Part shown: one piece after another, positions 13,606-43,972 of the stretch
How positions within the stretch are numbered: position 1 is the first letter of the stretch
Layout: every line of letters begins with the position of its first letter
Source of the DNA: Primula veris
Lineage: Eukaryota > Streptophyta > Magnoliopsida > Ericales > Primulaceae
Assembly: GCA_963682055.1 (NCBI GenBank)
Contig: OY821744.1
Coordinates: 6,550,835-6,614,834 of the forward strand
DNA: 64,000 nucleotides
Direction: 5' to 3'
Notes under the pieces: generated by a model
Seen by the model: only the letters and a program-made list of their open reading frames with translations
Database searches by the model: none
What the model was told of the DNA's origin: nothing
Program-made: the position numbers and the translations under genes

Positions 13606-13687
13606 GGGTAAATTTTGGATTGGTCCATGAAAACACAAGTATTTAAGGATTGGTCCATGAAACTGAAACTAATTAAGGATTGGTCCA
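13606..13687. repeat. MULE-1 left terminal repeat with three GGATTGGTCCA words
   Basis: GGATTGGTCCA occurs at 13617-13627, 13647-13657 and 13677-13687, spaced exactly 30 bp. The same words, inverted, fill the right end. Regular spacing near the termini suggests transposase binding sites; that is inference. Confidence 0.8.
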
Positions 13688-13735
13688 TTTGCTGACATCA
13701 TTAAAAAATTGCTGACGTCATCATAACACAATTAA

Positions 13736-13800
13736 AAAAAACAGAAACTTTTTTTCTCTCTCTCTCCTCTCTCTCTCATCTCTCTCTCCGAAAACCCTGA
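13736..13800 (+). promoter_or_regulatory. CT-rich leader upstream of the MULE-1 Ulp1 gene
   Basis: A CTCTCTCTCCTCTCTCTC tract, about 80-140 bp before the start codon, is mirrored by a GA-rich tract before the transposase gene at the other end. Such tracts are common in plant 5' UTRs. No clear TATA box is seen on this side. Confidence 0.4.
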
Positions 13801-13877
13801 AACTTTCTCTCTTTAAACCGCCAACAAATCCGGCTATCAAACTGAAAAACCTCTCTTCGTTAATTTCAGAAAACAAC

Positions 13878-16800
13878 ATGGTGAAGGTAAGTTTATTAAT
13901 CGTTGTTTTTATTAAAACAGTCTGAAAAATATATAAATTAATTTAATTAGGGTAAGTTCAGTGACATTTTACATAAATTAGGGTTATTAATTGTGTTTAC
14001 CCATTTTATATATAAATTAGGGTTCATACTCTATTGTTCATACTCTATTTTTAAATAAAAAATGCGATTCTAATAATATTTGTTGAAAATATTATTCAGA
14101 CTGTTTATATTCAGTTGTTTTGGGAATAAAAACATAAAACAGCCTGGAAAAAAGTATTCAGACTGTTTATATTCAGTTGTTTTGGGAATAAAAACATAAA
14201 ACAGCCTGGAAAAAAGTATTCAGACTGTTTAGTGATTCAGACTGTTTAGTGATCTATATGTAATTGTTGAAAATATTATTCAGACTGTTTATGTTTAGCG
14301 ATTCTAATAAAATTCGTATTCAGACTGTTTATATTCAGTTATTTTCGTAATAAAATTGGTAAAAACAGTATTCAGACTGTTTTTATGTTTAGCGATTCTA
14401 ATAAAATTGGTACTCAGACTGTTTATATTCAGTTATTTTCGTAATAAAATTGGTAAAAATAGTATTCAGACTGTTTTTATGTTTAGCGATTCTAATAAAA
14501 TTGGTACTCAGACTGTTTATATTCTAATAAGATTATGTTGGAAAAATACTCAGACTGTTTACTTTCTCTGTATGTTAATATGTGCATGAGTTTACACAGA
14601 CTGTTTACAGATTTTTTGTTATTGTTTTTAGAAACATATTGCCATCAAACATTCGACAAACCCCAAAAACCAACCATCTGACACCACAAACACCAAAAAA
14701 GGCAACATACAGTACAAATCAAACCTGGTTACTGTAATCAAGTTCTTTGTCGAAACAAATTTCAATCCGGCACAACTTGAATTAGTTAAGCAACACTGTC
14801 CGTTCTGGGAATTGATCAATGCTTCTAGAAATGGAGAATTAACCACTAACCAGGCTAGGAAAAGTGATAAAGAATTGTACCAGATGGCCTTGAGGTACGA
14901 CCGAAACTCACAGGCCCTTAAGCTAGGTAGATTCACAGTTCCAATAGAGAGAGACCGTGTGCGTGACATTTATGGAATTTCTGGTAATGCTGAAAATCCA
15001 ATAGCTCTCACAAGCTTTGCTAAAAACCAAGAAGCCTACCACAGCTTTGTTGAAAGATGCTTTTCAAATAAACTCAACAAATCCAACCTAACCAAAACAG
15101 CTATCGTAAAGGCATTGAACGAAGCATTGGTATTAACAACAAAAGTTGGTAGAGAGGACGTCGTCCGACTGGTAACATTGTACATGCTAAATGCATTTTT
15201 CTTGACGGTGAGCGGCATGACCATAGCATTGGGGTACTTGAAAATAGTTTCCGGTGACATCAAAGAGATAAAGGAATATGATTGGGCAACTCATATACAT
15301 GAGAAGCTTATGGAGTCGCTCAACAACCAAGACCCAAGATCACTGTCCACGTGTCTACTCACGATACCGGTACAATAAAATTACTTCTCAAGACCTTTTT
15401 TTTATTAGTTCATACTCTTTTTTATAAGTTAGTACTCTTTTTATATGTTCATAATGTTCTTAAGTTGTTTATTATTACATCAGACTCTTTATTTATTTCC
15501 ATTATAAATCAGACTGTATTATTACTATCATAAATCAGACTGTATTAAATCTCAGTATGTTTAAAAAATCTCAAAAAATCTCAGACTGTTTTTACAAAAC
15601 TGTAAAAACAGTCTGAATAATACTAAAAACAGTCTGAATAATATATTATTAAATCTCATACTGTATTGTTACTATCATTTAAGACAATATACTAAAAAAC
15701 AGTCTGAATCATTTAAAAAACAGTCTGAATCATTTAAGACAATATATTATTGCTCTATCTATCTCAGACTGTTTTTACAAAAACTGTAAAAAGAGTCTGA
15801 ATAATACTAGAAACAGTCTGAAAATAGATTATTAAAAATCATACTGTATTGTTACTATCATTTAAATCTCAGACTGTATTCTTAAAAACTGTATTTCCAT
15901 CTGTACAGTATGTCATCCTTGAAAAGTTCAATATTTCAAAACCGGACATGACAAAAGAAGCGTCCACAAAGGCTTTGTGTGTCAAATGGGACGTCTTTTC
16001 ATTCTTCAAGTTGTGTTCCTCAAGGTTCACAATTGTAGACCTGTGCAATGAAAAGGTATAACACTATTTCTATACAATTGTAGACTGTTTTTATTCTATC
16101 TATACAATTGCTTCTAAAAACCTTATCATTCTTTAAATTATCATCATAGGGATGTAGAAAACAATCAAAAAACCTCGTTATTTATGATGGTAAAAAGAAG
16201 CTACCTCCGAAACCAAAGCGATTAACAGATGAGGAGTTGGAGAAAGAGATAGACGAAGATGTTGAAGATCCTCAGAATGTTTACTCTAGTTCAACTGAAG
16301 AGGAAGGCTTGGAAAACTCTGAAAATGAAGGCTCGGAAAACACAGAAGAAGACTCTGAGAGCGAAAATGATTCAGACAACAAATTTACCATCTTCCTTAG
16401 GAAACAATTCGGGACACCAAAAACTCCAATATTCAATGAAAAAATGGGAACATCTAAGAGCACTGAATATGACGAGGGAGGTCCCTCTGGAGGTGGTGGC
16501 TGTTATAATTACAGTGCCGATGATATGCATGTGAATGAAAGTCCAATTCACGAAGAGAGGAGAGAAGAAGAGTCCGAAAAAGAAGAGACCAAAGTGGCTG
16601 AATTGCAGAAAAACCTAGATGAGGCAATTTTGCAAATTAAAGAGTATAAAGACCTAACAACCACAATGCAGAAAAGCATCAACGACCTTTGGAAATCTTT
16701 GGCTTTAGAAGAAAAATTAAAGTCCAAGTGGGTACCTGAGTGGAAACAAAAAATTGAACAAATGGTTGAGGAAAAAAAAATGCTCGAGAAGGAAATAAAA

Positions 16801-19800
16801 GGTAAACGCCATAAAATGCAATTCAAACTCTTCCTCTCTTGTCTAATTTTTTTTCCATTAGCTTGGTTTCCCTAAGTCAGACTGTTTGTGTTATAGAAAA
16901 GGAGGAGATGATCACCAAATACCAAAGAATTGTCTCTGATCTCCAGCAAGAGGCAGATGTAGAAAAAAATAAAATGCGAAACAAAGAAGCCGAGATGAAG
17001 CAAAGAATGGAAAAATTGGAGAATGAAAAAAAGCAGCTTGAGGAAGACCTACAAGGTAAAGGTAAAGTACCTCTATTGTAATCTATTACTATCATAAATC
17101 AGACTGTATTAAATCTCAGTCTGTTTAAAAATTAAAAAATATCAATAGAATCTCAGACTGTTTTTACAAAAACTGTAAAAAGAGTCTGAATAATACAAAA
17201 TTTATTTGAATATTAATGCACCTATTTTGCATTCATATTGTATTACTAAAAACAGTCTGAATTTTTTTTTATTAAAATCTCAGACTGTATTGTTACTATC
17301 ATTCGTAATGTATTATTAAAAACAGTCTGAATCCCTTTCTTTTGCTTAGTAAATTTCTTTCAATGAAATATATCAAATAGAAACCTCAGACTGTATTATT
17401 ACTATCATAAATCAGACTGTATTATTTCAATGAATTATTCAGACTGTTTTTCCTCTTATTGTTGCAGGGGGACATGAGCTAATAGAAGGGCTATACAATG
17501 ATGCACAGGTGTATGCGGCACACGACTACTCACAAAAGTGTCGAATCGATGAAGTTATAACTGATGCTCTCTTAAATGCGGATATACAGACTCCACAGCT
17601 AGATTTAATCCGCAAAGAAATTCTGGAAAGACTCGGTTATGAGTATGATGGTCCGGGATCCAATATTCTCCGAATCAGAGCAAGAACAGATAGGAGACCA
17701 CCAGTGAAGTACACACCAAGTAAAATAGACTCTCCAACAAAAACCCAAGCAAATGAGAACCAGCTACGGAAACGTAAGCAAGCTGATCAAGATGACAAGT
17801 CTGCAATGGTCGCAGACGTAGGCGCTTCTGATCCGTTGTTGGAAAAACCAAATAAAAAACCAAAGGGTGGACGAACAGCAAAAAAGAGAGCATCAAAAAA
17901 GAAATCTCCTGAACTGGACGACCAAGGTGGCGAAGGCTATTTCCCACAAATCGACTTCAGTAGTCTAGTAGACCATGTACCGGACAAAACAGAGAGAGCA
18001 CACGATATCATCACAAATAAAAATGAGAATGATATCACAACAAAGCTCCCTGACAACATCTTCAGCAAAATTCAAGAAATTCACAACGCAAATGGACCAT
18101 TGTAAGTCAGACTCTTTTTATTTTTGTGTTTATGATACAATTAGGTCTCACACTCTTTACATTTACCTCAGACTGTTTAAAACAGTATGAATTGTTTTAA
18201 TGAAGACTGTTTTGTATTTATGATACTTTTATATAGCTTGGACTCTTTTTAATTTTAGTTCAGACTGTTTTTATAGACTGTTCAGACTGTTTTTAGTTCT
18301 TTTTTATATAGCTCACTCTTTTTAAAAAATGATCAATTGTGTTTTTGTCAGACTGTTTAGTTCAGACTGTTTTTTGTTAGAAAGTTTAGTTCAGACTGTT
18401 TAGTTCAGAATGATAAATTTAGTTCAGACTGTTTTTTTATACAAGCCCCATACTGTTTTTTAATAGCTCAGACTCTTTTTTATATAGCTCAGACTCTTTA
18501 AAAAAAATGATCTATTGTGTCCCTTTTATATACAACTTTTAATGTTTTTTTTTAACTCAGACTGTTTTGTTGTCATACTGTTTTTTTCAATCTCATACTG
18601 TTTTTTCAATCTCAGACTGTTTTATCTCAGACTGTTTTGTTGTCAGACTGTTTTTTTCAATCTCAGACTGTTTTGTGCTTACTATAAAATTTTAATTTAC
18701 AGTGCCGCCTTGTTCTCAAAACTCGGTTCAAACAATAAGGATTACTTCATCACTCTCAACGACATCTACAACTTAATTAATGGCCAGTTGCTATGCTGTA
18801 ATGTAAGTATACAAGGATCGTACAATTTAATTGCTTGCTTACAAGCTCTTGTACTCATACTCTTTCTAAAACTTGTCCTTATCGCAGATCATAAATGGGT
18901 ATACCCACATATTGAGGCAAGAATACCAGGCAAAATCTACAAAAACATTCAAGATATTGACCTCCGTATTATGGGTAAAAACACAAACTCTTTTTATGTT
19001 GTCAATGCATCACTTTGTTTCTTTACAAAAAGAGTCTGAGATTTTATCTTAAACCTTTTCGTTGTTGTTTGGTTTGTAGTTTTTTTTAAAAGACAGGAAA
19101 AGATACGAGGATGAGCTCGATGCGAAAATCACCGATAAGCTGAGGAAGCACGTTCAGAACGGATACAAGTTATTGTTCTTCCCTATTAACTCGAATAGGA
19201 ACCGACCCATTGACGTAGAGGCAGACCACTGGACTCTATTGGTTCTGAACGTCGAATCGAAGAAGTGGGGTTTTTATAATAGCAACATACCTCCTTGCAA
19301 TATCAACAGACCAGACCCTTACCTTGATGACGCCAAACTAGTGGTAATTCAGACTCTTTTTAAAATACAACAGTCTGAATTTGCAAAAACTACCCTCTTC
19401 ATCTTTTAAATGTATATATTTTTTTTAATGTTACAGATGGCCTTTGTACAAGAAAAATTGAAAATGATAGCTGATGTGCCCTCCTTCTCACTTGATTCAC
19501 AAGATGGGTACACGTTAGACGTTGTAACAGACTGTCCCTATCAAGGAGCCACGTAAGAAAAATATGTGCCTACTGATATTCAGACTGTTTTTACTATTCA
19601 TCTAAATCAAAATTAATTTTACATGTTTTATTTTTTTACAGATCAGACTGTGCATTGTATGTGTGCTACAACATGGAGACAATCATCAATGGTGAACCTG
19701 TCACAAGAGAGACGACTTCCGACAAGATACTAGAGTTCAAGGCCAAGATAATAACGAGAATCGTCAATCGATACAATCAGTCTGAATTAACAAAAACAGT

Positions 19801-19804
19801 TTGA
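13878..19804 (+). CDS. MULE-1 Ulp1/C48-like protease-domain protein, 1022 aa, 11 exons
   Basis: Exons inferred from GT/AG sites with continuous frame: 13878-13886, 14632-15369, 15909-16055, 16150-16801, 16897-17055, 17468-18101, 18703-18802, 18888-18974, 19080-19343, 19437-19552, 19642-19804. Residues 1-300 form an alpha-rich N-terminal region (ALKLGRFTVPI...) of the type seen in plant mobile-element Ulp1 proteins. Exons 4-5 encode an acidic segment and a Lys/Glu coiled coil. Exon 6 is a basic KKPKGGRTAKKRASKKK linker. The C-terminal ~190 residues carry the Ulp1 signature: DHWTLLVLN (His ~892), YNSN (Asn ~909 where Ulp1 normally has Asp), CPYQG (Gln ~966) and SDCALYVC (Cys ~972). Ulp1 enzymes cleave SUMO; the substrate here is unknown. 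Exon 1 encodes only Met-Val-Lys. It converges on the transposase gene. Its partner in MULE-2 is 32312-38746. Confidence 0.82.
13887..14631 (+). repeat. TCAGACTGTTT array in Ulp1-gene intron 1 (MULE-1)
   Basis: About 12 sense-strand copies of CAGACTGT between 14099 and 14605 in a 745-bp intron, plus one reverse copy near 13918. Copies sit in 50-110 bp AT-rich sub-repeats (TTTATATTCAGTT.TTT, AGCGATTCTAATAAAATTGG). Confidence 0.85.
15370..15908 (+). repeat. Motif array in Ulp1-gene intron 2 (MULE-1)
   Basis: Mixed-orientation copies of CAGACTGT/ACAGTCTG, including a perfect 16-bp stem with a 4-nt loop (15581-15616) and a near-perfect one near 15761-15802. The intron ends CTGTACAG before exon 3. 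Confidence 0.85.
17056..17467 (+). repeat. Motif array in Ulp1-gene intron 5 (MULE-1)
   Basis: Repeated CTCAGACTGTATT and AAAACAGTCTGAAT units separated by TATTACTATCAT and TGTATTATTAAA spacers. MULE-2 has an extra partial duplication of this array (35852-36428). Confidence 0.85.
18102..18702 (+). repeat. Motif array in Ulp1-gene intron 6 (MULE-1)
   Basis: Densest array: about a dozen exact sense-strand CAGACTGTTT words plus variants CAGACTCTTT and CATACTGTTT in 600 bp, nearly all in one orientation. About 39 bp near 18590-18630 are missing from the MULE-2 copy. Confidence 0.87.
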
Positions 19805-20975
19805 TTAATGTAAAAATTAGTTGTAAACAGTCTGAATGTAAAAATAGTTCCATTATTTGTAAACAGTCTGAATAGAAAAGAGTTCTATTATTTTGTTCGA
19901 ATATGATTTCGTTTCTTTTCCATTTTCTTTCGCCAATATATTTTTCAATGAATCTTAAGACTGTATTATTACTATCAATCATAAATGTATTATTAAAACA
20001 TATAAAAACGTATTTATACTGTATTACAAAAAACAGTCTGAAAAATATTATTAAATCTCAGACTGTATTATTACTATCATTTATACTGTATTATTATAAA
20101 CAGTCTGAATCTCAGACCGTTTCAGTACTCACACAATTCAGACTGTTTTAAAGATATCTATTGACTAAAAAAAAAGAGTCTGAATAATATGATTGATGTA
20201 ACTAGTTTGCTTCACTTTATTTCTTCCGTTAATATATTTCAATGAAATATAAACAGTCTGAAAATATATTATTAAATCTCAGACTGTATTATTACTATCA
20301 ATTATACTGTATTATTATAAACAGTCTGAATCATTTACGACAATATACTAAAAAAACATCATATGACATGTATCATTAGAAACTCAGACTGTTTTTATGT
20401 TCATTAGAGTATCATACTGTTTTCAGAAAGAATCTCAGACTGTTTCATTACTCACAATTCAGACTGTTTTAAAGAAGTCTATTGACTAATAAAAAAGAGT
20501 CTGAATAATATGATGATTGATGTAACTAGTTTTCTTCGTTTTCTTTATTACAATCGTAAAAATAAGACTGTATTATTAAAAACAGTCTGAAAACATATAA
20601 ACAGTCTGTATTACAATCATAATCTCAGACTGTTTTTAATATAAAACTGTAAATCAAAACTGTAAACAGTCTGAATAAATACCTGTGCACAAACGAATCC
20701 ATCAGAAAAAATACCTGTGCACAAAAAACATAACATCAATTGATCTCTAAAACAGTCTGAAAACAGTCTGAATAAGAATAATAATAAAAAAAACGCAATT
20801 GATCTGTAAAAAGAACTCTAAATAACTGATTTGTAAAACAGTATGAATACAAGAACCTCATATTGTATTATTAATATCATAAAATCAGACTGTATTATTA
20901 AAAACAGTCTGAAAAAGGCCAACATCATATAAAACTAAAAAAAGTCTAATATACAACTAAAAAATCTATTCACGA
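19805..20975. repeat. Intergenic motif array between the two convergent genes (MULE-1)
   Basis: Between the stop codons of the Ulp1 and MURA genes, about 10 forward and 12 reverse copies alternate, so there is no strand bias here, unlike the introns. Near 20677-20727 it also contains a duplicated piece of the transposase start region (see findings). Confidence 0.85.
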
Positions 20976-23605
20976 TCATCCTTCAGAAGAAAGCTTCTCT
21001 TTGCACGTCCGTTGATTATGATTTGCATATTTCTTGCACCTCCCGCATTGATTAGCTTTCTTCTTTTTCGCGACTGGATTTGCCTCACCACCTGATGGAA
21101 TACGCTTCTTTTGAGGCCTTCCCGGAGGCCTTGATGTTTCTGGAGGTTTAATGTTTGACTCATTAATCAATTCAGAATCTCGCCAAATAGAACTAGGGAC
21201 TGGGTTGATTGGCGTATTGTACGAACTTCGATAAATGTCCACAAAGAACCATTTTTCAACAAAATTCTCCATAGGCAGTTTGTCCCTAGAAATACACAAA
21301 ACTGCATGTTGGCACGGGAACCCAGTCCTCTTCCATTCATGACATGAGCATTGCCGATGTCCCAGGTCCACGTATTCGGATGGAGCTGACAGCACTTCAT
21401 ATTTCCAAAACCCTGACCTCACAACCAAAAACGACAGACCGTTGTGAATGAATGTGTCCCATTTTTCTTGGTAGAAAGGACACAGAACACCTTTCCATGT
21501 TGCTGCAAAAAAAAAAAACATAACCAAAAATCTCTTAAAAACGTATACCTAGTAAAAACAGTATGATATGATGACAAACACGAATTCACATAACAGTCTG
21601 AGTTGCCACAAACCTGCTTTGATTCTTCTTTCATCGAACCATTTCATCAATTTCAATCTTAGCTTATCAATCAGTTCAGTGATAGGTAATTCTCTAATAT
21701 CATTGATCCAATTATTGAATGATTCCACAGCATTGGAAGTTGTCTCACCATATCGCGACTTTACACAATATGCTTCGGCCCATTTCATAGGATTGCAATT
21801 CTCCATAAATTTATCTATTTTACGACCCCCCATATTGCGCAACAACTTCATATTCTGTTCAAACAAAGGAATTGTAGCAGAAGTTGCACAAGTTTGCAAC
21901 AAATTAATAATTTCAGTCCTTTTTGTTCCATCACCCCCACTAAACTTCAATTTCAAATTATCCTTCAAATGGCGTAGACAGTAATAATGGTCTGCGTTGG
22001 GAAAAATCCGAGACATACCATCCAACAACCCAATATGTCTATCCGAGAAAAATGTCAAAGGACGGTCATCACCTATAGTTAACTTCAGTTGTTCTAGAAA
22101 CCAACCCCAATTATCAATATTCTCACTGCTAACAATAGCAAAAGCAAGTGGATACAACCCTGTAACATTAAAAAAATCAAAAACAGTCTGAAAATCAAAA
22201 ACAGTCTGAAAATCAAAAACAGTCTGAAAATAAAAAACAGTCTGAAAATCAAAAACAGTCTGATAACAAAAACAGTCTGATAACAAAAACAATCTGATAA
22301 CAAAAACAGTCTGATAACAAAAACAATCTGGTAACAAAAACATTTTTATAAAACAGTCTGATATAACAAAAGTTGTATATAAAACAGTCTGATAACAACA
22401 CAATTTAGGCTTGTATAACAAAACAGTCTGAACTAAATTTAAAAACAGTCTGAGTTATATAAACCATTAATGTAACAAAAAACAAACAAAAAAAGAGCTT
22501 GAAAAAGGAAAAACAAACCTTTATTGCCATTCTTGCCGACTGCAGACAATAAAACACCCTTATATTTTCCTTTTAAAAATGTTCCGTCAATGAAAAGCAT
22601 GGGGCGAACATCCCTAAACCCTTTTATGCAGCCATGAAGAGAGAAAAATACCCTTTTGAATTGATTTGAACCATTCCCATCCTTATCAAGTTCCAGGACA
22701 CTGCGACTCCCAGGATTTGTCGATTCTAAACCCACAAAATACCTTTCTAATTGGTTGTATGATTCATCGATATCCCCACTGTGCATTCCGCTAGCCATTT
22801 GGACAACATTCCAAGCTTTATAATAGCTTATCTCCAACCCATAACCAATCCTTAAATGCGATGTTATAGCAGAAGGGGCTAAATTTGGATTTTCCCTCAC
22901 ATATTCATCCATTATTTTCGATATGAGCTTGCTATTTACATGCTTGTTCAGAGCACCTGGGGCTAACTTTTTGCATGTATGTTGTGATTCAAACTTTCTA
23001 ATCTTAAATTGTTGGTCTGAGGTCCACACACCAGCATATATGTACCAGCTACAGCCAATACTATCCCTCTCTTCACAATAAGCGACCACCCTAACCGAGT
23101 TATTCCTTCCAAACCAGGGGACATGACCTTCATATATACAAAATTTCCGTAATGACTCTCTAAAGTGATCAGCACAACTAAAAATCTGCCCAACCCCAGT
23201 TATCAAGTTTGCCCACTCACTCGTTTTATAAACCTTCCTAACAGCTAAACTAGAACCTGCATCACACCAATCATCATCATCCGAAAATTCAGAACAATCA
23301 GCACTTATTTCCTTCGAAGTACCAACAGTGCAAGTGGATACAGTCCCAACAAAAACTAGAATCTCTACTATTTTTTTTCCCAACACGTTAAACAGAGCGA
23401 CCATATCTTTCAACTCATCATCCGATCTCAATAAACATCGCTCATCTATAATTGCTAAGTAGGTTAGAGACACTGAATCCAAATTCAAGCTAAACCTATT
23501 ACTTATTGTATGTAATAACTCCGCATAGGTCATACGCTTATTCAGAGCAACAGGGACACATTGATCATTATATCGACAATACATTACTAAATCAAACGAA
23601 TCCAT
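20976..23605 (-). CDS. MULE-1 MURA-type transposase, 719 aa, 3 exons
   Basis: Transposase of the Mutator superfamily, expected to bind the element ends and move it in the nucleus. Exons: 23605-22519, 22159-21614, 21502-20976. Residues ~1-75 look like a PB1-type domain. Residues ~140-220 match the MuDR N-terminal DNA-binding region (SCADHFRESLRKFCI...SQHTCKK). The DDE catalytic domain has Asp ~340 (FIDGTFLKGKYKG), Asp ~402 (FFSDRHIG) and Glu ~508 (TSNAVESFNNW), with the usual YCLRHLKDN between. A SWIM zinc finger follows (CSCHEWKRTGFPCQH, Cys 596/598/608, His 610), then an AT-hook-like RPPGRPQKKR and a C-terminal zinc knuckle CGRCKKYANHNQRTC. All three catalytic residues are present and no frame break is seen, so it may be functional. 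An in-frame upstream ATG lies in intron sequence; I prefer ATG 23603-23605 after a good acceptor (GTGCACAG). Confidence 0.9.
22160..22518 (-). repeat. Motif array in MURA intron between exons 1 and 2 (MULE-1)
   Basis: About 11 exact ACAGTCTG words plus several variants in 359 bp, all in reverse orientation on the plus strand, that is in sense for the transposase gene. Near-tandem units AAATCAAAAACAGTCTG and ATAACAAAAACAGTCTG make up the core. Confidence 0.87.
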
Positions 23606-23617
23606 CAGAAAAAATAC

Positions 23618-24593
23618 CTGTGCACAAAAACAGTATGAAGTATTAAATTTTAATAATAAACGCAATTGATCTCTAAAAACCTAACAAAAACCTACATTGT
23701 GTTACAGAAACAGTCTGAGTTATTATATAATAAGAATACAATAGCTCAGACTGTTTATAATAACTCAGACTGTTTTCTGTAACTCTAGAATACAATAGCT
23801 CAGACTGTTTTTAAAAACAGTCTGAATACAAGAAAAAACAGTATGAACTCTTGAATTTTAACAATACAAAATCATACAGAACAGTCTGAATTATTATAAT
23901 AAACACTGTTTTTTAAAACAGTCTGAATACAAGAAAAAAACAGTATGAAGTATTGAATTTTAATAATAAACGCAATTGATCTCTAAAAACCTAACAAAAA
24001 CCTACATTGTGTTACAAAAAAAAGTCTGAGTTATTATATAACAAGAATACAATAGCTCAGACTGTTTATAATAACTCAGACTGTTTTCTGTAACTCTAGA
24101 ATAAATAGCTCAGACTGTTTTTAAAAACAGTCCGAATACAAGAAAAAACAGTATGAACTCTTGAATTTTAACAATACAAAATCATACATAACAGTCTGAA
24201 TTATTATAATAAACACTGTTTTTTAAAACAGTCTGAATACAAGAAAAAAACAGTATGAAGTATTGAATTTTAATAATAAACGCAATTGATCTCTAAAAAC
24301 CTAACCAAAACATGCATTGTGTTACAGAAAACAGTCTGAGTTATTATATAACAAGAAATACAGTAGCTCAGACTGTTTATTAATAACTCAGACTGTTTTA
24401 TGTAACTCTTGAATACAATAGCTCAAACTGTTTTTTTAAAACAGTCTGAATAAATCATACATTGTGTTAGAAAATTCTGATTTATTATTTATTATAATAA
24501 ATCTCTAAAACCTAAATTCAGCAAAGCAATTTGAGCTAAACTCAGCAAGAAAAACGAAGCTAGCAATAAAAAAACAGTTTGAAGAGAGAGAAC
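23618..24593 (-). repeat. MURA 5' UTR intron built of 310-bp tandem units (MULE-1)
   Basis: Donor CAGACAG|GTTCTC (24594/24593) and acceptor GTGCACAG|GTATT (23618/23617) on the minus strand suggest a 976-bp leader intron. It holds ~2.6 units of a 310-bp tandem repeat starting with CAGTATGAAGTATT at 23631, 23941 and 24251. Each unit has about six TCAGACTGTTT words in both orientations. Confidence 0.7.
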
Positions 24594-24599
24594 CTGTCT

Positions 24600-24770
24600 G
24601 TCGAGAGAGAGAGATATACAGAAATTTGATAAAATTCGTTCAGTGAGAGAGATATACAGCTAATAGTGTATATAGATGGTTTAGAGAGAGAGAGATGGAG
24701 AGAAACGGTTTAGAGAGAGAGATAGATACAACTGTTTAAAAAAACAGAATATGTATAATATATATATAGT
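24600..24770 (-). promoter_or_regulatory. Promoter region of MULE-1 transposase gene
   Basis: On the minus strand a TATATATA tract (near 24757-24768) is followed by CTCTCTC tracts and then the putative 5' UTR donor. The promoter overlaps the innermost GGATTGGTCCA word of the right terminus (24770-24780), so terminal binding sites could also affect transcription. Confidence 0.45.
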
Positions 24771-24883
24771 GGACCAATCCTTAATTAGTTTCATAAATAA
24801 TGGACCAATCCTTAAATAAATTTTATAGCTGGACCAATCCTTAAATACTTTTGTTTTCGTGGACCAATCCTTAATTTTCTCTA
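24770..24883. repeat. MULE-1 right terminal repeat with four inverted GGATTGGTCCA words
   Basis: TGGACCAATCC at 24770-24780, 24801-24811, 24830-24840 and 24860-24870. One word more than at the left end, with 29-31 bp spacing. Confidence 0.8.
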
Positions 24884-27343: not shown

Positions 27344-27534
27344 TGTTAAAGGAAAGAATCATACTGAATAAATTAATTGACAACGGTAATTGAGAGCTGA
27401 TGATTTACTTCTTATTATCCTATATGTCAGCATAATTATAGGGATTACAGTAGATTGTGATTATCTAGTCCTGTATAAAAGGCTAGTGTTTTACCCTTGT
27501 AAATCATCACTAAATAAACATATGTTTCTCTTTA
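27344..27534 (+). repeat. Copia 5' LTR, 191 bp
   Basis: Starts TGTTAAAGGAAAG and ends TTTCTCTTTA; the canonical CA terminus is TA here. A TATA-like CTGTATAAAAGG lies near 27472-27483. It preserves the empty site (TTCTTATTATCC) into which MULE-2 inserted in the other LTR. Confidence 0.9.
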
Positions 27535-27546
27535 TGGTACCAGAGC
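27535..27546 (+). other. Primer-binding site for initiator tRNA-Met
   Basis: TGGTACCAGAGC differs at one position from TGGTATCAGAGC, the complement of the 3' end of plant initiator tRNA-Met that most plant copia elements use. It abuts the LTR directly. Confidence 0.85.
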
Positions 27547-27592
27547 AAGGTTCTGGAATTTAAAAATTCACAAAACCCTAGCCTACATAACG

Positions 27593-30500
27593 ATGGGAGA
27601 CAAAGGGGCAGAGAAAGCAACCAAGTCAGGCATGCCTTCTAACCCTAGTTGGGAAAATTTTAATCATCCTTTATACCTACACCATTCGGATCAGCCAGGG
27701 GCAATTCTTGTGTCACAACCCTTGGTGGAAGATAACTATAATACATGGGCTCAGTCCATGAATATGGCATTGGCGGTCAAGAACAAAATTGGCTTAGTCG
27801 ATGGAACGATTGAGGAGCCGACCGAGAAAGACGAACTGCTACAATGGAATCGTTGCAACAATTTAGTCAAGACTTGGCTACTAGGATCAATGTCAAAAGA
27901 GATTGCCGGAAGCGTCATCAACTGTAAGAGTGCACGCAACATGTGGCTTGATTTGCAAGAGCGTTTTTCTCATGCGAATACTGTCCAGCTTTTTCATGTG
28001 GAGAACGAGATCCATGATTGTGTGCAAGGTAACATGTCAGTAAGTTCCTACTACACAGAACTGAAAAAATATTGGGATGATCGTGATACACTTTGCCCGA
28101 TCCCTGCATGCAATTGTGGATCATCCAAACAGATAAACTCATATCGAGAGACTCAGAAGACCATGAAATTTCTCATGGGTCTGAATGATTCGTTTACTAC
28201 TGTACGTAGTAATATTTTGTTGTTGGATCCATTACCGCCGGTAAACAAGGCGTATGCACTAGTAATACGTCAAGAAAAGCAAACCGAGGTTTACGGAAAG
28301 GTGCCGACACAACCCGAAGCAGCTGTGTTTGCTGTGAAAAACTCGAACAGAGAATTAAACATAGAAAATAGTGGTTTAAAATGTGGAAAGTGCCACAAAA
28401 CAAACCATAGCACTGAAAATTGTCGCGCACATCAAAAGTGCACTTATTGTGGCTGGAAAGGACACTTATACGAGTTTTGTAGAAAAAGAAAGAATGTCGA
28501 AGGAGAGCGGACTCGTTTCAAAGGTAATCAAGTTAGTGCCTCTGTATCTAATAGGAAAGAAGAGGCGTCATACTTTCCGTTCTCTCAAGAGGAATGCAAA
28601 CAGCTACTAAACATGTTGAACAAGAGTAAGGTTTCCATGGTTAATCAAGTCGGTAATCATCTAAATCATGACGAAATCTCAGGTAAAACCCTCAAATTAT
28701 ATGAGAATGGAAAGAAAGATTATTGGATCTTAGATAGCGGCGCTACTGACCATATTGTTTGTAGTCCAAACCTCCTTACATTTTCAAAACAAGTTAAAAA
28801 TTACTCTGTTGAGTTACCAAATGGTTCATCTGCACAAGTTACTCATATTGGAAAAGTCGTTTTCTCACCCAATTTTATCCTTAATAATGTCCTGTGTGTG
28901 CCACTTTTTCATCTGAATTTGATCTCCATCAGTAAGCTAGCCTTCGATTCATCTTTCATTACTGTTTTTCTTAAAAACTTTTGTGTCATACAGGACCTAC
29001 GTTCGGGGAAGATGATTGGGACGGGAATTGAACGGGAGGGGCTCTATTACCTTGACCAAGCAAAAAAAGGAACATGTAATTCAATTCGAGCTTTTGTCCC
29101 TGGTCTTTGGCACCAACGCCTTGGACACCCTTCCAACAAAGTATCTTCATTATTTTCTTTTTTCAAGAATAAAATTTGTGATCAAGACAAATGTTTAATT
29201 TGCCCTCTAGCTAAACAGACCAGATTACCCTTTTCATTAAGTTCTATTTCTACTCAGTCTTGTTTTGATTTAATACATATCGATATTTGGGGTGGTTATC
29301 ATGTTCCTTCACTCTCAGGAGCAAAGTATTTTCTTACCATCGTTGATGATTATACTAGAAGCACATGGATTTATTTAATGAAATACAAATCCGAAACACG
29401 TGATCTTTTAGTCAAATTCATAAATATGGTTGAGAACCAATTTAATACTAGAATAAAAATTGTTCGTAGTGATAATGGCCCAGAATTCAAAATGGAAAGC
29501 TTTTATTCTGAAAAAGGGATCGTTCATCAAACTAGTTGCGTCGACACACCACAACAAAATGGTGTTGCCGAACGCAAACATAGACATCTACTTAATGTCG
29601 CTCGTGCTCTGCTTTTTCAAGCCAACCTTCCCAAACATTTTTGGGGTGATGCTATCCTTACCTCAGCATACCTTATTAACCGTACACCCACACCTGTCCT
29701 TGGTGGTAAAACACCATTCGAAAAATTATTTCAAAAGGAACCATCTTATTCACACCTAAGAGTTTTCGGTTGTTTATGTTTTGCTTCCACACATTCGAGT
29801 AAACGTACAAAATTCGACTCTCGTGCATCTCATTGCATTTTTCTTGGTTATCCTTATAGCCAAAAGGGGTATAGAGTGTTCGATCTTGAACTTAAAAAGG
29901 TCTTTGTCTCAAGAGATGTTCTATTTTTTGAGGACATATTTCCTTATCAAACCAACACGAATTCCGCTGCACCGCTGAATCACCCGAACCCCACTATCTC
30001 ACCTTCAGCCTTTGACATGGATTATATACCAAGTCCTAGCCTCATTACACCATCTCAAACACAATGGCTAGCCGATGACATGCCACCTGAACCCACACCT
30101 TTTCAACAAAACCAGCTAGAGGACACATCTCCAACTCAATCACCAACTACACCATTATCCTCAACGGTTTCATACCCCACACAATCTTTTCCCGATGATG
30201 CACAAGCAGCCCAACCACCACCAAGAAAATTTACACGGTCTACAAAAGCCCCGTCTTTTTTGCAAGACTTTCATGTTGAGGTAGCCCTTCCGTCAAGAAC
30301 CGTTCCTTCGTCTACAACGAACATGGTCATAAACAAAGGTACGGCCCATCCACTTTCCCATTTTTTGTCATATGACCATCTTTCTTCAAGGCACAAAGTT
30401 TTTACTAATAAGCTTACACTTCTTAAAGAACCAAAAAGCTTCCAGCAGGCTATTCGAGATCCAAAATGGCGTGAAGCTATGCACTCTGAAATACAAGCAC

Positions 30501-31996
30501 TTCAGGCCAATAATACTTGGAAGCTCGTCCCACTTCCATCTCATAAAAGAGCTATTGGATGTAAATGGGTTTACAAAATCAAGCTAAAACCGGATGGCAG
30601 TATAGAGCGTTACAAGGCTCGATTGGTGGCGAAAGGCTATAGTCAAGTTGAAGGCGTTGATTATCGTGAAACTTTTGCACCAGTAGCAAAACTCACTACA
30701 GTCCGTGTGTTACTTAGCATTGCCGCCATAAAAGGATGGCACTTACATCAACTCGACGTTAATAACGCTTTTTTAAATGGTGATCTTTACGAAGAAGTTT
30801 ATATGGCCATGCCTCCTGGTTTCGAAAGAAAGGGGGAGAATGTAGTTTGCAAGTTACAGAAGTCTATTTACGGATTAAAACAAGCCTCGCGACAATGGTT
30901 TATAAAGTTATCAAGTGCTCTCAAAGCGGATGGTTTCCAGCAATCTTTGTCAGATTATTCCCTATTTGTTCGAAATCATCCAGGTAGTTTTATTGCATTG
31001 TTGGTATATGTCGACGATGTGATATTGGCAGGAAATAACTTGCAAGACATTGCAAAAACAAAATTGTTTCTTTCAAACCATTTCAAGTTGAAGGATATGG
31101 GAATACTTAAATATTTCTTGGGAATAGAAGTCGCACGGTCCAAGCAGGGAATTACATTGTGTCAAAGAAAATATGCATTGGAAATTTTAGAAGACGCAGG
31201 GCTTTTAGGTGGAAAACCCTCTCGATTCCCTGTTGAGCAAAATTTGTCTCTCACTCAAACGAATGGGGAATTGCTTGCTGACCCATCTTCGTATCGTCGT
31301 CTAGTTGGTCGTCTCATTTACCTTACCATTACGAGGCCTGACCTTGTGTACATTGTCCACGTACTAAGTCAATTCATGGATAAACCAAGACAGCCACACC
31401 TTGAAGCTGCACACAAAGTTCTCAGGTACATAAAACAAGCACCCGGACAAGGAATTTTGCTATCTTCTCAAAGTCGATTGGAGTTGCGAGCATTTTGTGA
31501 TGCCGATTGGGCTCGATGCAGAGATACAAGAAGATCGATTACTGGGTACTGCGTTCTCCTCGGTTTATCACCGGTCTCTTGGAAAACTAAAAGACAGAGT
31601 ACTGTGTCTCGTTCGAGTGCAGAGGCGGAGTATCGTTCAATGGCTAATACTTGTTGTGAAATCACCTGGTTAAAGAATATTCTGAATGACTTAAATGTGA
31701 CACATACAAAACCAGTTACATTGTTTTGTGACAATCAGGCTGCTATGCACATAGCCGCAAATCCGGTGTTCCATGAACGAACGAAACATATAGAACTTGA
31801 TTGTCACTTAATACGTGAAAAGATTCAGAGTGGGATGGTGCGGACGGCTTATATTCGAACTACAAATCAGCCCGCTGACCTGTTTACTAAACCAATCGGT
31901 TCCACACAGTTCGAAGTGCTGCTTAGCAAGTTGGGAGTCATTAACATCCATTCCAACTTGAGGGGGAGTGTTAAAGGAAAGAATCATACTGAATAA
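27593..31996 (+). CDS. Copia Gag-Pol polyprotein, 1467 aa, intact
   Basis: Single open frame with all copia domains in copia order. Gag, ~20-240 (YNTWAQSMNMALAVKNKIG...), then two zinc knuckles ~264-300 (CGKCHKTNHSTENC and CTYCGWKGHLYEFC). Protease near 381 (WILDSGATDH). Integrase HHCC ~505-550 (LWHQRLGHP...CLICPLAKQ), then the catalytic core ~560-700 (IDIWGG, RSDNGPEF, NGVAERKHR give D,D,E). Reverse transcriptase ~965-1210 with KARLVAKGYSQ, LDVNNAFLNGDL and the active site YVDDVIL near 1139. RNase H ~1290-1440 (DADWA, SSAEAEYRS, CDNQAA). Start ATG lies 46 bp after the PBS; the last codons run 28 bp into the 3' LTR, where the TAA stop is supplied. No frameshift or stop. Lineage within copia not resolved. 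Confidence 0.96.
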   Translation: MGDKGAEKATKSGMPSNPSWENFNHPLYLHHSDQPGAILVSQPLVEDNYNTWAQSMNMALAVKNKIGLVDGTIEEPTEKDELLQWNRCNNLVKTWLLGSMSKEIAGSVINCKSARNMWLDLQERFSHANTVQLFHVENEIHDCVQGNMSVSSYYTELKKYWDDRDTLCPIPACNCGSSKQINSYRETQKTMKFLMGLNDSFTTVRSNILLLDPLPPVNKAYALVIRQEKQTEVYGKVPTQPEAAVFAVKNSNRELNIENSGLKCGKCHKTNHSTENCRAHQKCTYCGWKGHLYEFCRKRKNVEGERTRFKGNQVSASVSNRKEEASYFPFSQEECKQLLNMLNKSKVSMVNQVGNHLNHDEISGKTLKLYENGKKDYWILDSGATDHIVCSPNLLTFSKQVKNYSVELPNGSSAQVTHIGKVVFSPNFILNNVLCVPLFHLNLISISKLAFDSSFITVFLKNFCVIQDLRSGKMIGTGIEREGLYYLDQAKKGTCNSIRAFVPGLWHQRLGHPSNKVSSLFSFFKNKICDQDKCLICPLAKQTRLPFSLSSISTQSCFDLIHIDIWGGYHVPSLSGAKYFLTIVDDYTRSTWIYLMKYKSETRDLLVKFINMVENQFNTRIKIVRSDNGPEFKMESFYSEKGIVHQTSCVDTPQQNGVAERKHRHLLNVARALLFQANLPKHFWGDAILTSAYLINRTPTPVLGGKTPFEKLFQKEPSYSHLRVFGCLCFASTHSSKRTKFDSRASHCIFLGYPYSQKGYRVFDLELKKVFVSRDVLFFEDIFPYQTNTNSAAPLNHPNPTISPSAFDMDYIPSPSLITPSQTQWLADDMPPEPTPFQQNQLEDTSPTQSPTTPLSSTVSYPTQSFPDDAQAAQPPPRKFTRSTKAPSFLQDFHVEVALPSRTVPSSTTNMVINKGTAHPLSHFLSYDHLSSRHKVFTNKLTLLKEPKSFQQAIRDPKWREAMHSEIQALQANNTWKLVPLPSHKRAIGCKWVYKIKLKPDGSIERYKARLVAKGYSQVEGVDYRETFAPVAKLTTVRVLLSIAAIKGWHLHQLDVNNAFLNGDLYEEVYMAMPPGFERKGENVVCKLQKSIYGLKQASRQWFIKLSSALKADGFQQSLSDYSLFVRNHPGSFIALLVYVDDVILAGNNLQDIAKTKLFLSNHFKLKDMGILKYFLGIEVARSKQGITLCQRKYALEILEDAGLLGGKPSRFPVEQNLSLTQTNGELLADPSSYRRLVGRLIYLTITRPDLVYIVHVLSQFMDKPRQPHLEAAHKVLRYIKQAPGQGILLSSQSRLELRAFCDADWARCRDTRRSITGYCVLLGLSPVSWKTKRQSTVSRSSAEAEYRSMANTCCEITWLKNILNDLNVTHTKPVTLFCDNQAAMHIAANPVFHERTKHIELDCHLIREKIQSGMVRTAYIRTTNQPADLFTKPIGSTQFEVLLSKLGVINIHSNLRGSVKGKNHTE
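31958..31968 (+). other. Copia polypurine tract
   Basis: TTGAGGGGGAG immediately before the 3' LTR start TGTTAAAGG; it is the expected plus-strand primer and lies within the ORF. Confidence 0.85.
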
Positions 31997-32039
31997 ATTA
32001 ATTGACAACGGTAATTGAGAGCTGATGATTTACTTCTTA
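31969..32039 (+). repeat. Copia 3' LTR, left part
   Basis: First 71 bp of the 3' LTR, identical to 27344-27414. It ends ...ACTTCTTA, where MULE-2 begins. Confidence 0.93.
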
Positions 32040-32311
32040 GGGTAAATTTTGGATTGGTCCATGAAAACACAAGTATTTAAGGATTGGTCCATGAAACTGA
32101 AACTAATTAAGGATTGGTCCATTTGCTGACATCATTAAAAAATTGCTGACGTCATCATAACACAATTAAAAAAAACAGAAACTTTTTTTCTCTCTCTCTC
32201 CTCTCTCTCTCATCTCTCTCTCCGAAAACCCTGAAACTTTCTCTCTTTAAACCGCCAACAAATCCGGCTATCAAACTGAAAAATCTCTCTTCGTTGATTT
32301 CAGAAAACAAC

Positions 32312-35300
32312 ATGGTGAAGGTAAGTTTATTAATCGTTGTTTTTATTAAAACAGTCTGAAAAATATATAAATTAATTTAATTAGGGTAAGTTCAGTGACA
32401 TTTTACATAAATTAGGGTTATTAATTGTGTTTACCCATTATATATATAAATTAGGGTTCATACTCTATTGTTCATACTCTATTTTTAAATAAAAATTGCG
32501 ATTCTAATAATATTTGTTGAAAATATTATTCAGACTGTTTATATTCAGTTGTTTTGGGAATAAAAACATAAAACAGCCTGGAAAAAAGTATTCAGACTGT
32601 TTATATTCAGTTGTTTTGGGAATAAAAACATAAAACAGCCTGGAAAAAAGTATTCAGACTGTTTAGTGATTCAGACTGTTTAGTGATCTATATGTAATTG
32701 TTGAAAATATTATTCAGACTGTTTATGTTTAGTGATTCTAATAAAATTCGTATTCAGACTGTTTATATTCAGTTATTTTCGTAATAAAATTGGTAAAAAT
32801 AGTATTCAGACTGTTTTTATGTTTAGCGATTCTAATAAAATTGGTACTCAGACTGTTTATATTCAGTTATTTTCGTAATAAAATTGGTAAAAATAGTATT
32901 CAGACTGTTTTTATGTTTAGCGATTCTAATAAAATTGGTACTCAGACTGTTTATATTCTAATAAGATTATGTTGGAAAAATACTCAGACTGTTTACTTTC
33001 TCTGTATTTTAATATGTGCATGAGTTTACACAGACTGTTTACAGATTTTTTGTTATTGTTTTTAGAAACATATTGCCATCAAACATTCGACAAACCCCAA
33101 AAACCAACCATCTGACACCACAAACACCAAAAAAGGCAACATACAGTACAAATCAAACCTGGTTACTGTAATCAAGTTCTTTGTCGAAACAAATTTCAAT
33201 CCGGCACAACTTGAATTAGTTAAGCAACACTGTCCGTTCTGGGAATTGATCAATGCTTCTAGAAATGGAGAATTAACCACTAACCAGGCTAGGAAAAGTG
33301 ATAAAGAATTGTACCAGATGGCCTTGAGGTACGACCGAAACTCACAGGCCCTTAAGCTAGGTAGATTCACAGTTCCAATAGAGAGAGACCGTGTGCGTGA
33401 CATTTATGGAATTTCTGGTAATGCTGAAAATCCAATAGCTCTCACAAGCTTTGCTAAAAACCAAGAAGCCTACCACAGCTTTGTTGAAAGATGCTTTTCA
33501 AATAAACTCAACAAATCCAACCTAACCAAAACAGCTATCGTAAAGGCATTGAACGAAGCATTGGTATTAACAACAAAAGTTGGTAGAGAGGACGTCGTCC
33601 GACTGGTAACATTGTACATGCTAAATGCATTTTTCTTGACGGTGAGCGGCATGACCATAGCATTGGGGTACTTGAAAATAGTTGCCGGTGACATCAAAGA
33701 GATAAAGGAATATGATTGGGCAACTCATATACATGAGAAGCTTATGGAGTCGCTCAACAACCAAGACCCAAGATCACTGTCCACGTGTCTACTCACGATA
33801 CCGGTACAATAAAATTACTTCTCAAGACCTTTTTTTATTAGTTCATACTCTTTTTTATAAGTTAGTACTCTTTTTATATGTTCATAATGTTCTTAAGTTG
33901 TTTATTATTACATCAGACTCTTTATTTATTTCCATTATAAATCAGACTGTATTATTACTATCATAAATCAGACTGTAAAAACAGTCTGAATAATACTAAA
34001 AACAGTCTGAATAATATATTATTAAATCTCATAATGTATTGTTACTATCATTTAAGACAATATACTAAAAAACAGTCTGAATCATTTAAAAAACAGTCTG
34101 AATCATTTAAAAAACAGTCTGAATCATTTAAAAAACAGTCTGAATCATTTAAGACAATATATTATTGCTCTATCTATCTCAGACTGTTTTTACAAAAACT
34201 GTAAAAAGAGTCTGAATAATACTAGAAACAGTCTGAAAATAGATTATTAAAAATCACACTGTATTGTTACTATCATTTAAATCTCAGACTGTATTCTTAA
34301 ATACTGTATTTCCATCTGTACAGTATGTCATCCTTGAAAAGTTCAATATTTCAAACCCGGACATGACAAAAGAATCTCAGACTGTTTTTACAAAACTGTA
34401 AAAACAGTCTGAATAATACTAAAAACAGTCTGAATAATATATTATTAAATCTCATAATGTATTGTTACTATCATTTAAGACAATATACTAAAAAAAAGTC
34501 TGAATCATTTAAAAAACAGTCTGAATCATTTAAGACAATATATTATTGCTCTATCTATCTCAGACTGTTTTTACAAAAACTGTAAAAAGAGTCTGAATAA
34601 TACTAGAAACAGTCTGAAAATAGATTATTAAAAATCACACTGTATTGTTACTATCATTTAAATCTCAGACTGTATTCTTAAATACTGTATTTCCATCTGT
34701 ACAGTATGTCATCCTTGAAAAGTTCAATATTTCAAACCCGGACATGACAAAAGAAGCATCCACAAAGGCTTTGTGTGTCAAATGGGACGTCTTTTCATTC
34801 TTCAAGTTGTGTTCCTCAAGGTTCACAATTGTAGACCTGTGCAATGAAAAGGTATAACACTATTTCTATACAATTGTAGACTGTTTTTATTCTATCTATA
34901 CAATTGCTTCTAAAAACCTTATCATTCTTTAAATTATCATCATAGGGATGTAGAAAACAATCAAAAAACCTCGTTATTTATGATGGTAAAAAGAAGCTAC
35001 CTCCGAAACCAAAGCGATTAACAGATGAGGAGTTGGAGAAAGAGATAGACGAAGATGTTGAAGATCCTCAGAATGTTTACTCTAGTTCAACAGAAGAGGA
35101 AGGCTTGGAAAACTCTGAAAATGAAGGCTCGGAAAACACAGAAGAAGACTCTGAGAGCGAAAATGAGTCAGACAACAATTTTACCATCTCCCTTCGGAAA
35201 CAATTCGGAACACCAAAAACTCCAAAATTCAATGAAATAATGGAAACATCTAAGAGCACCGAATATGACGAGGGAGGTCCCTCTGGAGGTGGTGGCTGTT

Positions 35301-38300: not shown

Positions 38301-38746
38301 TTTAAAATACAACAGTCTGAATTTGCAAAAACTACCCTCTTCATCTTTTAAATGTATATATTTTTTTTAATGTTACAGATGGCCTTTGTACAAGAAAAAT
38401 TGAAAATGATAGCTGATGTGCCCTCCTTCTCACTTGATTCACAAGATGGGTACACGTTAGACGTTGTAACAGACTGTCCCTATCAAGGAGCCACGTAAGA
38501 AAAATATGTGCCTACTGATATTCAGACTGTTTTTACTATTCATCTAAATCAAAATTAATTTTACATGTTTTATTTTTTTACAGATCAGACTGTGCATTGT
38601 ATGTGTGCTACAACATGGAGACAATCATCAATGGTGAACCTGTCACAAGAGAGACGACTTCCGACAAGATACTAGAGTTCAAGGCCAAGATAATAACGAG
38701 AATCGTCAATCGATACATTCAGTCTGAATTAACAAAAACAGTTTGA
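32312..38746 (+). CDS. MULE-2 Ulp1/C48-like protease-domain protein, 11 exons
   Basis: Counterpart of the MULE-1 gene at 13878. Exons: 32312-32320, 33066-33803, 34705-34851, 34946-35597, 35693-35851, 36429-37062, 37645-37744, 37830-37916, 38022-38285, 38379-38494, 38584-38746, with uninterrupted frame. Catalytic-site sequence is the same: DHW, YNSN (Asn instead of Asp), CPYQG, SDCALYVC. Differences from MULE-1 are concentrated in the acidic part of exon 4 (for example SENDSDNKF versus SENESDNNF, and IFNEKMG versus KFNEIME) and the basic linker of exon 6 (for example ASDPLL versus APEPLL). An upstream duplicate of the start of exon 3 lies in intron 2 (34324-34374). Function as proposed for the MULE-1 protein. 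Confidence 0.82.
32321..33065 (+). repeat. Motif array in Ulp1-gene intron 1 (MULE-2)
   Basis: Same length (745 bp) and nearly the same sequence as intron 1 of MULE-1, with about 12 sense TCAGACTGTTT words. Confidence 0.85.
33804..34704 (+). repeat. Expanded motif array in Ulp1-gene intron 2 (MULE-2)
   Basis: 901 bp against 539 bp in MULE-1. The growth is a tandem duplication of ~380-400 bp (about 33970-34374 and 34375-34754) that includes the intron 2 acceptor and the first 51 nt of exon 3. A local run of four AAAAAACAGTCTGAATCATT units lies near 34067-34150. Confidence 0.85.
35852..36428 (+). repeat. Expanded motif array in Ulp1-gene intron 5 (MULE-2)
   Basis: 577 bp against 412 bp in MULE-1. 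A ~220-bp block from TTCATATT.TATTACTAAAAACAG to the TTGCTTAGTAAATT and ATCAGACTGTATT words occurs twice (about 35895-36115 and 36195-36415). Confidence 0.82.
37063..37644 (+). repeat. Motif array in Ulp1-gene intron 6 (MULE-2)
   Basis: As in MULE-1 but about 19 bp shorter overall; dense sense-strand TCAGACTGTTT, CAGACTCTTT and CATACTGTTT words. Confidence 0.85.
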
Positions 38747-42571: not shown

Positions 42572-42583
42572 CAGAAAAAATAC

Positions 42584-43560: not shown

Positions 43561-43738
43561 CTGTCTGTCGAGAGAGAGAGATATACAGAAATTTGATAAA
43601 ATTCGTTCAGTGAGAGAGATATACAGCTAATAGTGTATATAGATGGTTTAGAGAGAGAGAGATGGAGAGAAACGGTTTAGAGAGAGAGAGATAGATACAA
43701 CTGTTTAAAAAAACAGAATATGTATAGTATATATATAG

Positions 43739-43844: not shown

Positions 43845-43847
43845 TTA

Positions 43848-43967: not shown

Positions 43968-43972
43968 TATAT

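Follow-up and report, generated by a model that had tools for sequence, protein, structure and literature searches.

The closest described systems come from Arabidopsis. There, the protein VANC21 binds the word YAGTATTAY in clustered arrays within the non-coding DNA of the VANDAL21 element, after which methylation is lost, and the related VANC6 acts on other words, AGTTGTCC/AGTTGTAC (PMC5735166). Words of both kinds form tandem repeats in introns, in intergenic DNA and upstream of VANA and are rare elsewhere; the authors argue that activation of transcription is not the primary effect of VANC21, and name the way in which VANC-type proteins remove silent marks after binding as an important remaining question (PMC5735166). 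The DUF287 domain is present in the VANCs of that study (PMC5735166, Fig. 5 legend), and degenerate terminal inverted repeats are given as a VANDAL feature (PMC10398659). In a review (PMC13317346), Ulp1-carrying VANC genes of Arabidopsis act on elements of their own kind, and Ulp1 capture is placed at the monocot-eudicot split. The principle is known from Arabidopsis, where such systems exist, some with Ulp1 domains, and word differences between related families are already part of the VANC picture (PMC5735166; PMC13317346). Here we describe a stretch of 64,000 nucleotides from Primula veris (assembly GCA_963682055.1, contig OY821744.1, positions 6,550,835 to 6,614,834 of the forward strand; below, the window) that holds two copies, MULE-1 and MULE-2, of a Mutator-like element (MULE), family A. 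Each copy encodes a MURA transposase and a Ulp1-domain protein, V, and its long non-coding segments are saturated with the octamer CAGACTGT, a word that belongs to family A in the places examined; related loci with diverged V proteins in the same genome carry different words. The family is probably, by analogy, an autonomous element with a VANC-like system of self-recognition and anti-silencing.

The gene models of V and MURA were made by hand, with exons predicted from splice sites and reading frame. The two elements and their genes are laid out as follows.

About 13606..24881, no strand assigned: MULE-1, whole element, with imperfect terminal inverted repeats; left end GGGTAAATTTTGG..., right end ...CCTTAATTTTCTC
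13878..19804, plus strand: gene V of MULE-1; 11 predicted exons, 1022 aa, 10/10 introns GT-AG, frame intact
20976..23605, minus strand: MURA gene of MULE-1; 3 predicted exons, 719 aa, intact frame, with PB1, DBD_Tnp_Mut, MULE and SWIM (Pfam)
32040..43844, no strand assigned: MULE-2, the second copy, within the 3' long terminal repeat (LTR) of a copia element
32312..38746, plus strand: gene V of MULE-2, 1022 aa, intact
39919..42571, minus strand: MURA gene of MULE-2, intact

Exact copies of CAGACTGT number 208 in the window (both strands), against a mean of 1.40 and a largest value of 5 in 100 dinucleotide shuffles. An earlier interpretation of this DNA, the sequence-only reading, had claimed such an excess over chance, with roughly 55 + 40 octamers in MULE-1, and exact counting bears it out: MULE-1 (counted over 13604-24880) holds 96, of which 55 are forward and 41 reverse. 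It had also claimed that the words fill introns and intergenic parts but not exons, equally in MULE-2, and that variants add to them. The counts agree, with 94 of the MULE-1 words in 6,048 non-coding bases and 2 in 5,229 exon bases, a split that is no length effect, since exons make up 5,229 of the 11,277 bases of the element. MULE-2 contains 110 words (108 non-coding, 2 exonic), the 40,911 bases outside both elements contain 2, and the variants CATACTGT and CAGACTCT occur 30 and 23 times in the window (both strands). Dense filling (12-31 words per kb) is seen in long introns, in the intergenic DNA between the two 3' ends and upstream of the transposase gene, but it does not extend to short introns or element ends: introns below 112 bp hold 0-2 words each, and the ends of MULE-1 lack CAGACTGT, with none in the 274 bp that precede the first ATG on the left side and the last copy at 24441. 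The segments concerned in MULE-1 are listed here.

13887..14631, plus strand: V intron 1; 12 forward words, 1 reverse
15370..15908, plus strand: V intron 2; 5 + 5 words (counterpart in MULE-2 901 bp, 18 words)
17056..17467, plus strand: V intron 5; 6 + 2 words
18102..18702, plus strand: V intron 6; 12 words, all forward
19643..19651, plus strand: TCAGACTGT, one of the two exonic words; TCA GAC TGT, Ser-Asp-Cys, including the putative Ulp1 nucleophile Cys972
19805..20975, no strand assigned: 3'-3' intergenic stretch; 8 + 12 words
22160..22518, minus strand: MURA intron 1; 11 words, every one sense
23606..24448, no strand assigned: MURA upstream region; 310-bp repeats, 16 words (8 + 8)

The array DNA shows internal resemblances as well. 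Positions 18541-18674 (V intron 6) and 22216-22344 (MURA intron 1) are 78% identical in inverted orientation, which suggests that array DNA passed from an intron of one gene into an intron of the other. Within the 3'-3' intergenic array, 20677-20728 repeats the beginning of MURA (TGTGCACAGGTATTTTTTCTGATGGATTCGTTT, minus strand), which looks like a transfer of upstream repeats into that array.

The word can be extended beyond the octamer. The flank analysis was seeded with the exact octamer, so that eight positions were fixed by the search, and words with similar flanks were down-weighted, leaving 59.4 effective contexts from 94 words. T before and TT after the octamer are present at 95-97% in MULE-1, the next base on each side at 54-68%, and positions further out mostly carry <=0.3 bits; the three nearly fixed bases together with the octamer define the 11-mer TCAGACTGTTT. 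The 8- and 10-mers within TCAGACTGTTT top the enrichment ranking of MULE-1 non-coding DNA against the rest of the window. Beside 78 exact 11-mers there are 44 with one mismatch (letter-shuffle expectation 0.18), 31 of which are accounted for by three changes, position 4 G>T, position 8 G>C and position 10 T>A.

Across the source genome (436.5 Mb), exact TCAGACTGTTT occurs 15,396 times, against 267 for the reversed word. The first 100 listed places, which reach to 6.65 Mb on C1, comprise five clusters with 95 of them and 5 singles. We opened every cluster and one of the singles: four clusters belong to clear members of the family, and the fifth adjoins a decayed family end. Confinement of the word to its MULE family, which the sequence-only reading had proposed as a test, holds for these five clusters and one single. 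L014/L015 represents a third near-complete copy (97-99% identity in long matches), and L009 and L010 are shorter non-autonomous copies that keep word arrays. In L011 the array is decayed and one family end can be recognised; L001, the single, likewise lies in a decayed array. L012 is reduced to ends and array.

C1, about 5.5915-5.5951 Mb (5460-9108 of L012): non-autonomous copy of 3.65 kb, family ends plus a 2.8-kb array

Its interior repeats a 26-bp unit that holds word variants (ACAGTCTGAAC / ACAGTCCGAAC) about 106 times and has no recognisable genes. A genome search with MURA gave 127 matches from 62 of 1,767 candidates scored, and 30/30 of the MURA loci returned (both window copies included) carry 24-33 exact 11-mers per 4.1 kb. 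The word is unchanged in three further copies of greater divergence (MURA exon 1 about 83-90% identical), at 28-44 octamers per 10 kb. In 8 distinct copies including MULE-1, words occur in the first two V introns but not in exon 2, and these copies also share the 12/1 pattern of V intron 1 (9 loci, two of them one place).

The orientation of the words offers a view on what they might do. In MULE-1, 37 words in V introns are sense and 9 antisense; in MURA introns all 12 are sense. MURA intron 1 has 4-15 sense and 0 antisense words in 33/33 copies examined (both window copies included); these represent 23 distinct sequences of 322-452 bp in 16 lengths. Translation of the MURA introns was tried and dropped, as every intron 1 examined has 1-8 in-frame stops. 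This sense bias, which reaches 24/25 in V introns 1 and 6 of MULE-1 and concerns a word that is T-rich when read in sense, would suit an enhancer of transcription or splicing to which V or a host factor binds and which activates the element genes instead of removing silencing. We consider such a role improbable, given that the intergenic (8 + 12) and MURA-upstream (8 + 8) parts hold both orientations similarly, that the array-only L012 is without recognisable genes, and that activation of transcription was argued against as the primary effect of VANC21 (PMC5735166).

Loci with diverged V proteins allow the word and the protein to be compared. When the genome was searched with the N-terminal 299 residues of V, 348 candidates yielded 131 matches; 85 span most of exon 2 at 86-99% identity, and seven other places reach 29-70%. 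Five of the seven were examined with 4 kb of DNA each, namely three at 43-48% (clade B: L057, L060, L061) and two at 29-32% (clade C: L058, L059), leaving out the 66% and 70% loci. The consensus words, seeded with 8-9 fixed bases, are TCATACTGTTTT for clade B and ATTAGATTGTCA for clade C, both extending to 12-mers. A ranking against other genome DNA, with no word supplied, returned AAAACAGTAT and AACAGTATGA as top 10-mers for L057/L060/L061 and ATTAGATTGT and TAGATTGTCA for L058/L059. These top 10-mers occur 8-12 times in clade B and 12-23 times in clade C, against 2-5 in 12 unrelated 4-kb segments and 8 in a segment with a 73-bp tandem repeat (10-mers of fewer than four letters excluded; a fourteenth segment overlapped MULE-1 and gave 20). 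Exact cross-counts were made with A = TCAGACTGTT, B = TCATACTGTT and C = TTAGATTGTC, for which 20 shuffles each give an expectation of <=0.35 in any cell; the counts are given as A/B/C.

Clade A: MULE-1 82/11/0; MULE-2 93/9/0; L046 31/7/0; L047 25/2/0; L048 20/3/0
Clade B: L057 3/9/0; L060 3/11/0; L061 4/8/0
Clade C: L058 0/0/23; L059 0/0/12
Rest of the window: 0/0/0

For exact words, the separation of A and C is complete, with no A word in C and no C word in A. Families A and B are close: A copies hold a minority of B words and conversely, and words A and B differ by one base while the surrounding DNA is unaligned. Under the settings chosen, DNA of one clade did not match that of another; long DNA matches inside clades are about 86-92% alike, and the compared protein pieces are 25-38% identical between clades. 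Genome-wide, word C occurs 3,445 times against 95 for its control and word B 2,312 times against 139, part of the latter inside family-A copies (e.g. C1:6638930-6645005). A likeness of word C to word A is not claimed, as its 7 matches are reached by 8% of shuffles. Clade C words keep one orientation per cluster save in one mixed cluster (first 100 listed places). Their spacings lie near multiples of 11 bp, a signal reached by 0/2000 jittered sets, the spacings not being independent; this test left out the mixed cluster, singles and distances >110. A 2022 EMBO J study (Sasaki et al.) reportedly deals with helical spacing of words and covers eudicots. A genome search for DUF1985 gave 2 sub-threshold loci, L062 and L063, both without words A, B and C, which we take to resemble plant-mobile-domain genes; L062 shows a small excess of a word of its own around ATCTACGGTT (6-8 copies).

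As the word differs among three clades of the V N-terminal domain, V is a likelier reader than the transposase. This assignment draws on three clades and five distant loci. It is also favoured by the element ends, which bear a different repeated word, a better candidate for the transposase site.

13617..13687, plus strand: three left-end copies of GGATTGGTCCA, transposase-site candidates, exact at 13617, 13647 and 13677
24770..24870, minus strand: four right-end copies of GGATTGGTCCA, reverse complement, exact at 24770, 24801, 24830 and 24860

In the window, GGATTGGTCCA has 13 exact matches, only at element ends, in inverted orientation and with 3-4 per end. Non-autonomous copies without coding genes (L009, L010, L012) retain word arrays, as they might if TCAGACTGTTT were an internal binding site of MURA, or of V as a transposase accessory, used in transposition. 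That separate terminal word weakens this explanation: the ends lack the array word while GGATTGGTCCA sits there and nowhere else, and end synapsis should need no hundred internal sites in introns. A role in transposition therefore appears very improbable, and we find it highly likely that V reads the word. The suggestion of the sequence-only reading that the Ulp1-domain protein is the reader gains on both grounds, clade-specific words and a separate end word.

The ends also define the elements and their recent history. The sequence-only reading had set MULE-1 at 13887-24593; the terminal repeats give a larger extent, about 13606-24881. The inverted ends of MULE-1 align imperfectly over about 87 bp and are present, if not clean. 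MULE-2 interrupts the following retrotransposon.

27344..43968, plus strand: copia retrotransposon hosting MULE-2; 5' LTR from 27344, about 190 bp, 3' LTR split at 32039/43845

The copia LTRs are identical at 192/192 compared bases, and the insertion of MULE-2 into such an element indicates that the family moved recently. At this insertion (32037-32039, 43845-43847) the overlap is just TTA, and the right end of MULE-2 is without the final bases present in MULE-1. MULEs usually leave target-site duplications of 8-11 bp. No clear duplication was seen for MULE-1 or the L014/L015 copy; L012, with ends as in MULE-1, has one of 9 bp, TTGTTTCTA.

Comparison of the two window copies shows how the arrays change. 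MULE-1 and MULE-2 differ in 79 of 5,986 aligned non-coding columns and 46 of 5,229 exon columns; the exons align without gaps, all 659 gap columns are non-coding, and array copy number differs. Synonymous divergence (dS) is uneven, at 0.005 in the V N-terminal part, 0.044 in mid V, 0.019 in the Ulp1 part and 0.002 in MURA, which suggests that the copies are mosaics produced by recombination.

16150-18101 versus 34946-37062, plus strand: high-divergence stretch, V exons 4-6, dS 0.044

Such arrays could be neutral satellites, spread by tandem duplication and copying between introns, with exonic duplications purged. Much of the word load indeed lies in tandem repeats, segments of different introns are 78-87% alike, decayed arrays persist in old copies, and the 8-mer is conserved no better than its surroundings. 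Neutral copying would, however, carry flanks along with the word, and conservation drops three bases outside the octamer seed, with about 59 independent flanks among 94 words. Furthermore, B and C, seeded alike, extend to 12-mers in unrelated DNA, and words A and B are one base apart though nothing around them aligned. Because one word recurs in many contexts and is replaced along with the protein clade, this explanation is weakened, and we hold it to be unlikely to account for the arrays.

The predicted proteins fit an autonomous element. MURA matches PF10551 (MULE transposase) at E=3.2e-20, which identifies it as a MULE/MURA DDE transposase, and its neighbours in a tree of 20 of the 120 listed database matches are Liquidambar, Camellia, Rhododendron and Malus proteins. 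V consists of an N-terminal DUF1985-like region, an acidic/coiled middle, a basic stretch and a C-terminal Ulp1 domain (Pfam Peptidase_C48, E=3.2e-9). DUF1985 is the best Pfam match of exon 2, and the full-length protein matches it at E=0.088, below the cut-off. V has no match to DUF287 (Pfam) at E<=1, a domain that VANCs gain and lose. The catalytic set of Ulp1 (C48) proteases is His-Asp-Gln-Cys; by inspection, the putative positions His892, Gln966 and Cys972 are kept in V, and Asn909 stands at the usual Asp place. Protein database searches for V relatives gave none up to the cut-off, and no meaningful match was found for exon 2 among solved structures or for the N-terminal part in NCBIfam. 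A fold prediction of exon 2 made without an alignment was discarded at a predicted local distance difference test score (pLDDT) of 41.5.

Several results weigh against a VANC-like function. Between MULE-1 and MULE-2, 11-mers carry 5/847 substitutions against 74/5,139 elsewhere (p=0.049), weak constraint at best, and 8-mers show no difference, with 8/744 against 71/5,242 (p=0.73) or, when defined in MULE-2, 10/753 against 69/5,233 (p=1.0). The DUF1985 match of exon 2 is sub-threshold (E=0.0042, 17.5 bits against a cut-off of 35.1), and none was found in the six clade-B/C open pieces scanned, four of them N-terminal. TCAGACTGTTT is not significantly like the VANC21 word (26% of shuffles) or the VANC6 words (81-87%), and family-A words are without helical phasing (p=0.92). 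The clade B and C loci are decayed and were viewed over 4 kb each, and the top 10-mer count of L061 (8) is no higher than that of the tandem-repeat control segment. The parallel with VANC drawn in the sequence-only reading stands in part: the word system, the layout, the tandem evolution and the word turnover match, but membership of V among VANCs by sequence is unproven at 17.5 of 35.1 bits. Taken together, anti-silencing is the probable effect of V on its element, as judged from the Arabidopsis parallels.

In the VANC-like system envisaged here, V would bind clustered word copies through its N-terminal half, DUF1985-like, with the Ulp1 domain at the C-terminus, and would coat introns, intergenic DNA and the transposase upstream region. 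Its own element, and non-autonomous copies with arrays too, would thereby lose DNA methylation and silent chromatin or be kept free of them. MURA would subsequently work on the separate GGATTGGTCCA repeats at the ends. Arrays would grow and shrink through tandem duplication and copying between introns, so that word and reader can change together. A more speculative and rather doubtful extension is that V is a word-guided deSUMOylase, its N-terminal half docking on hundreds of TCAGACTGTTT copies while Ulp1 strips SUMO from silencing proteins. If true, this would supply the step that leads from binding by VANC-type proteins to the removal of silent marks, and array-only copies like L012 would be parasites of the system, with ends and docking sites as their whole content. 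By inspection the Ulp1 domain keeps three of its four catalytic positions, and it provides a way, open to testing, in which binding could lead to loss of silencing. In a plant other than Arabidopsis, three words and three diverged putative readers in one genome constitute a natural swap experiment on the joint evolution of a DNA word and the protein that reads it. Word density could be tested directly with the array-only copy and with autonomous copies that are intact and moved recently.

Elsewhere in the window, a 73-bp tandem repeat with 8.3 copies (58553-59175) adjoins a gypsy-type open frame, and an Rfam scan at the gathering threshold gave no match.

59272-63951, minus strand: gypsy-type open frame with RVT_1, RNase H and integrase

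Among the papers listed by our literature searches, none reported the family or its word, three words within one genome outside Arabidopsis, copies that consist of arrays only, or any word system demonstrated outside Arabidopsis; the 2022 EMBO J eudicot study may cover parts of this. Among described elements, the Ulp1-carrying VANDALs KIU/Kaonashi of Arabidopsis are also MULEs with a Ulp1-domain gene, and are described as causing hypomethylation of own-kind elements through motifs (PMC13317346). We liken them by that description and by the Ulp1 domain; the host is a different plant. The MULEs of melon, rice and grapevine likewise contain a Ulp1 sequence, and the consulted part of the same review, from whose description they are compared, does not mention word arrays in them (PMC13317346). 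Unlike VANDAL21 and VANDAL6, the Primula family has a V protein with a Ulp1 domain, a sub-threshold DUF1985 match and no DUF287 match, imperfect terminal inverted repeats of some 50-90 bp with repeated GGATTGGTCCA, and, in L012, a non-autonomous copy of little but word array. Like VANDAL21/VANC21 and VANDAL6/VANC6 (PMC5735166; PMC10398659), it combines a Mutator-type transposase with a second protein and packs an 8-9-base word into intron, intergenic and transposase-upstream DNA, leaving exons poor in it. As in those systems, the tandem repeats vary among copies, related families have different words, and high word density is peculiar to the family within its genome.

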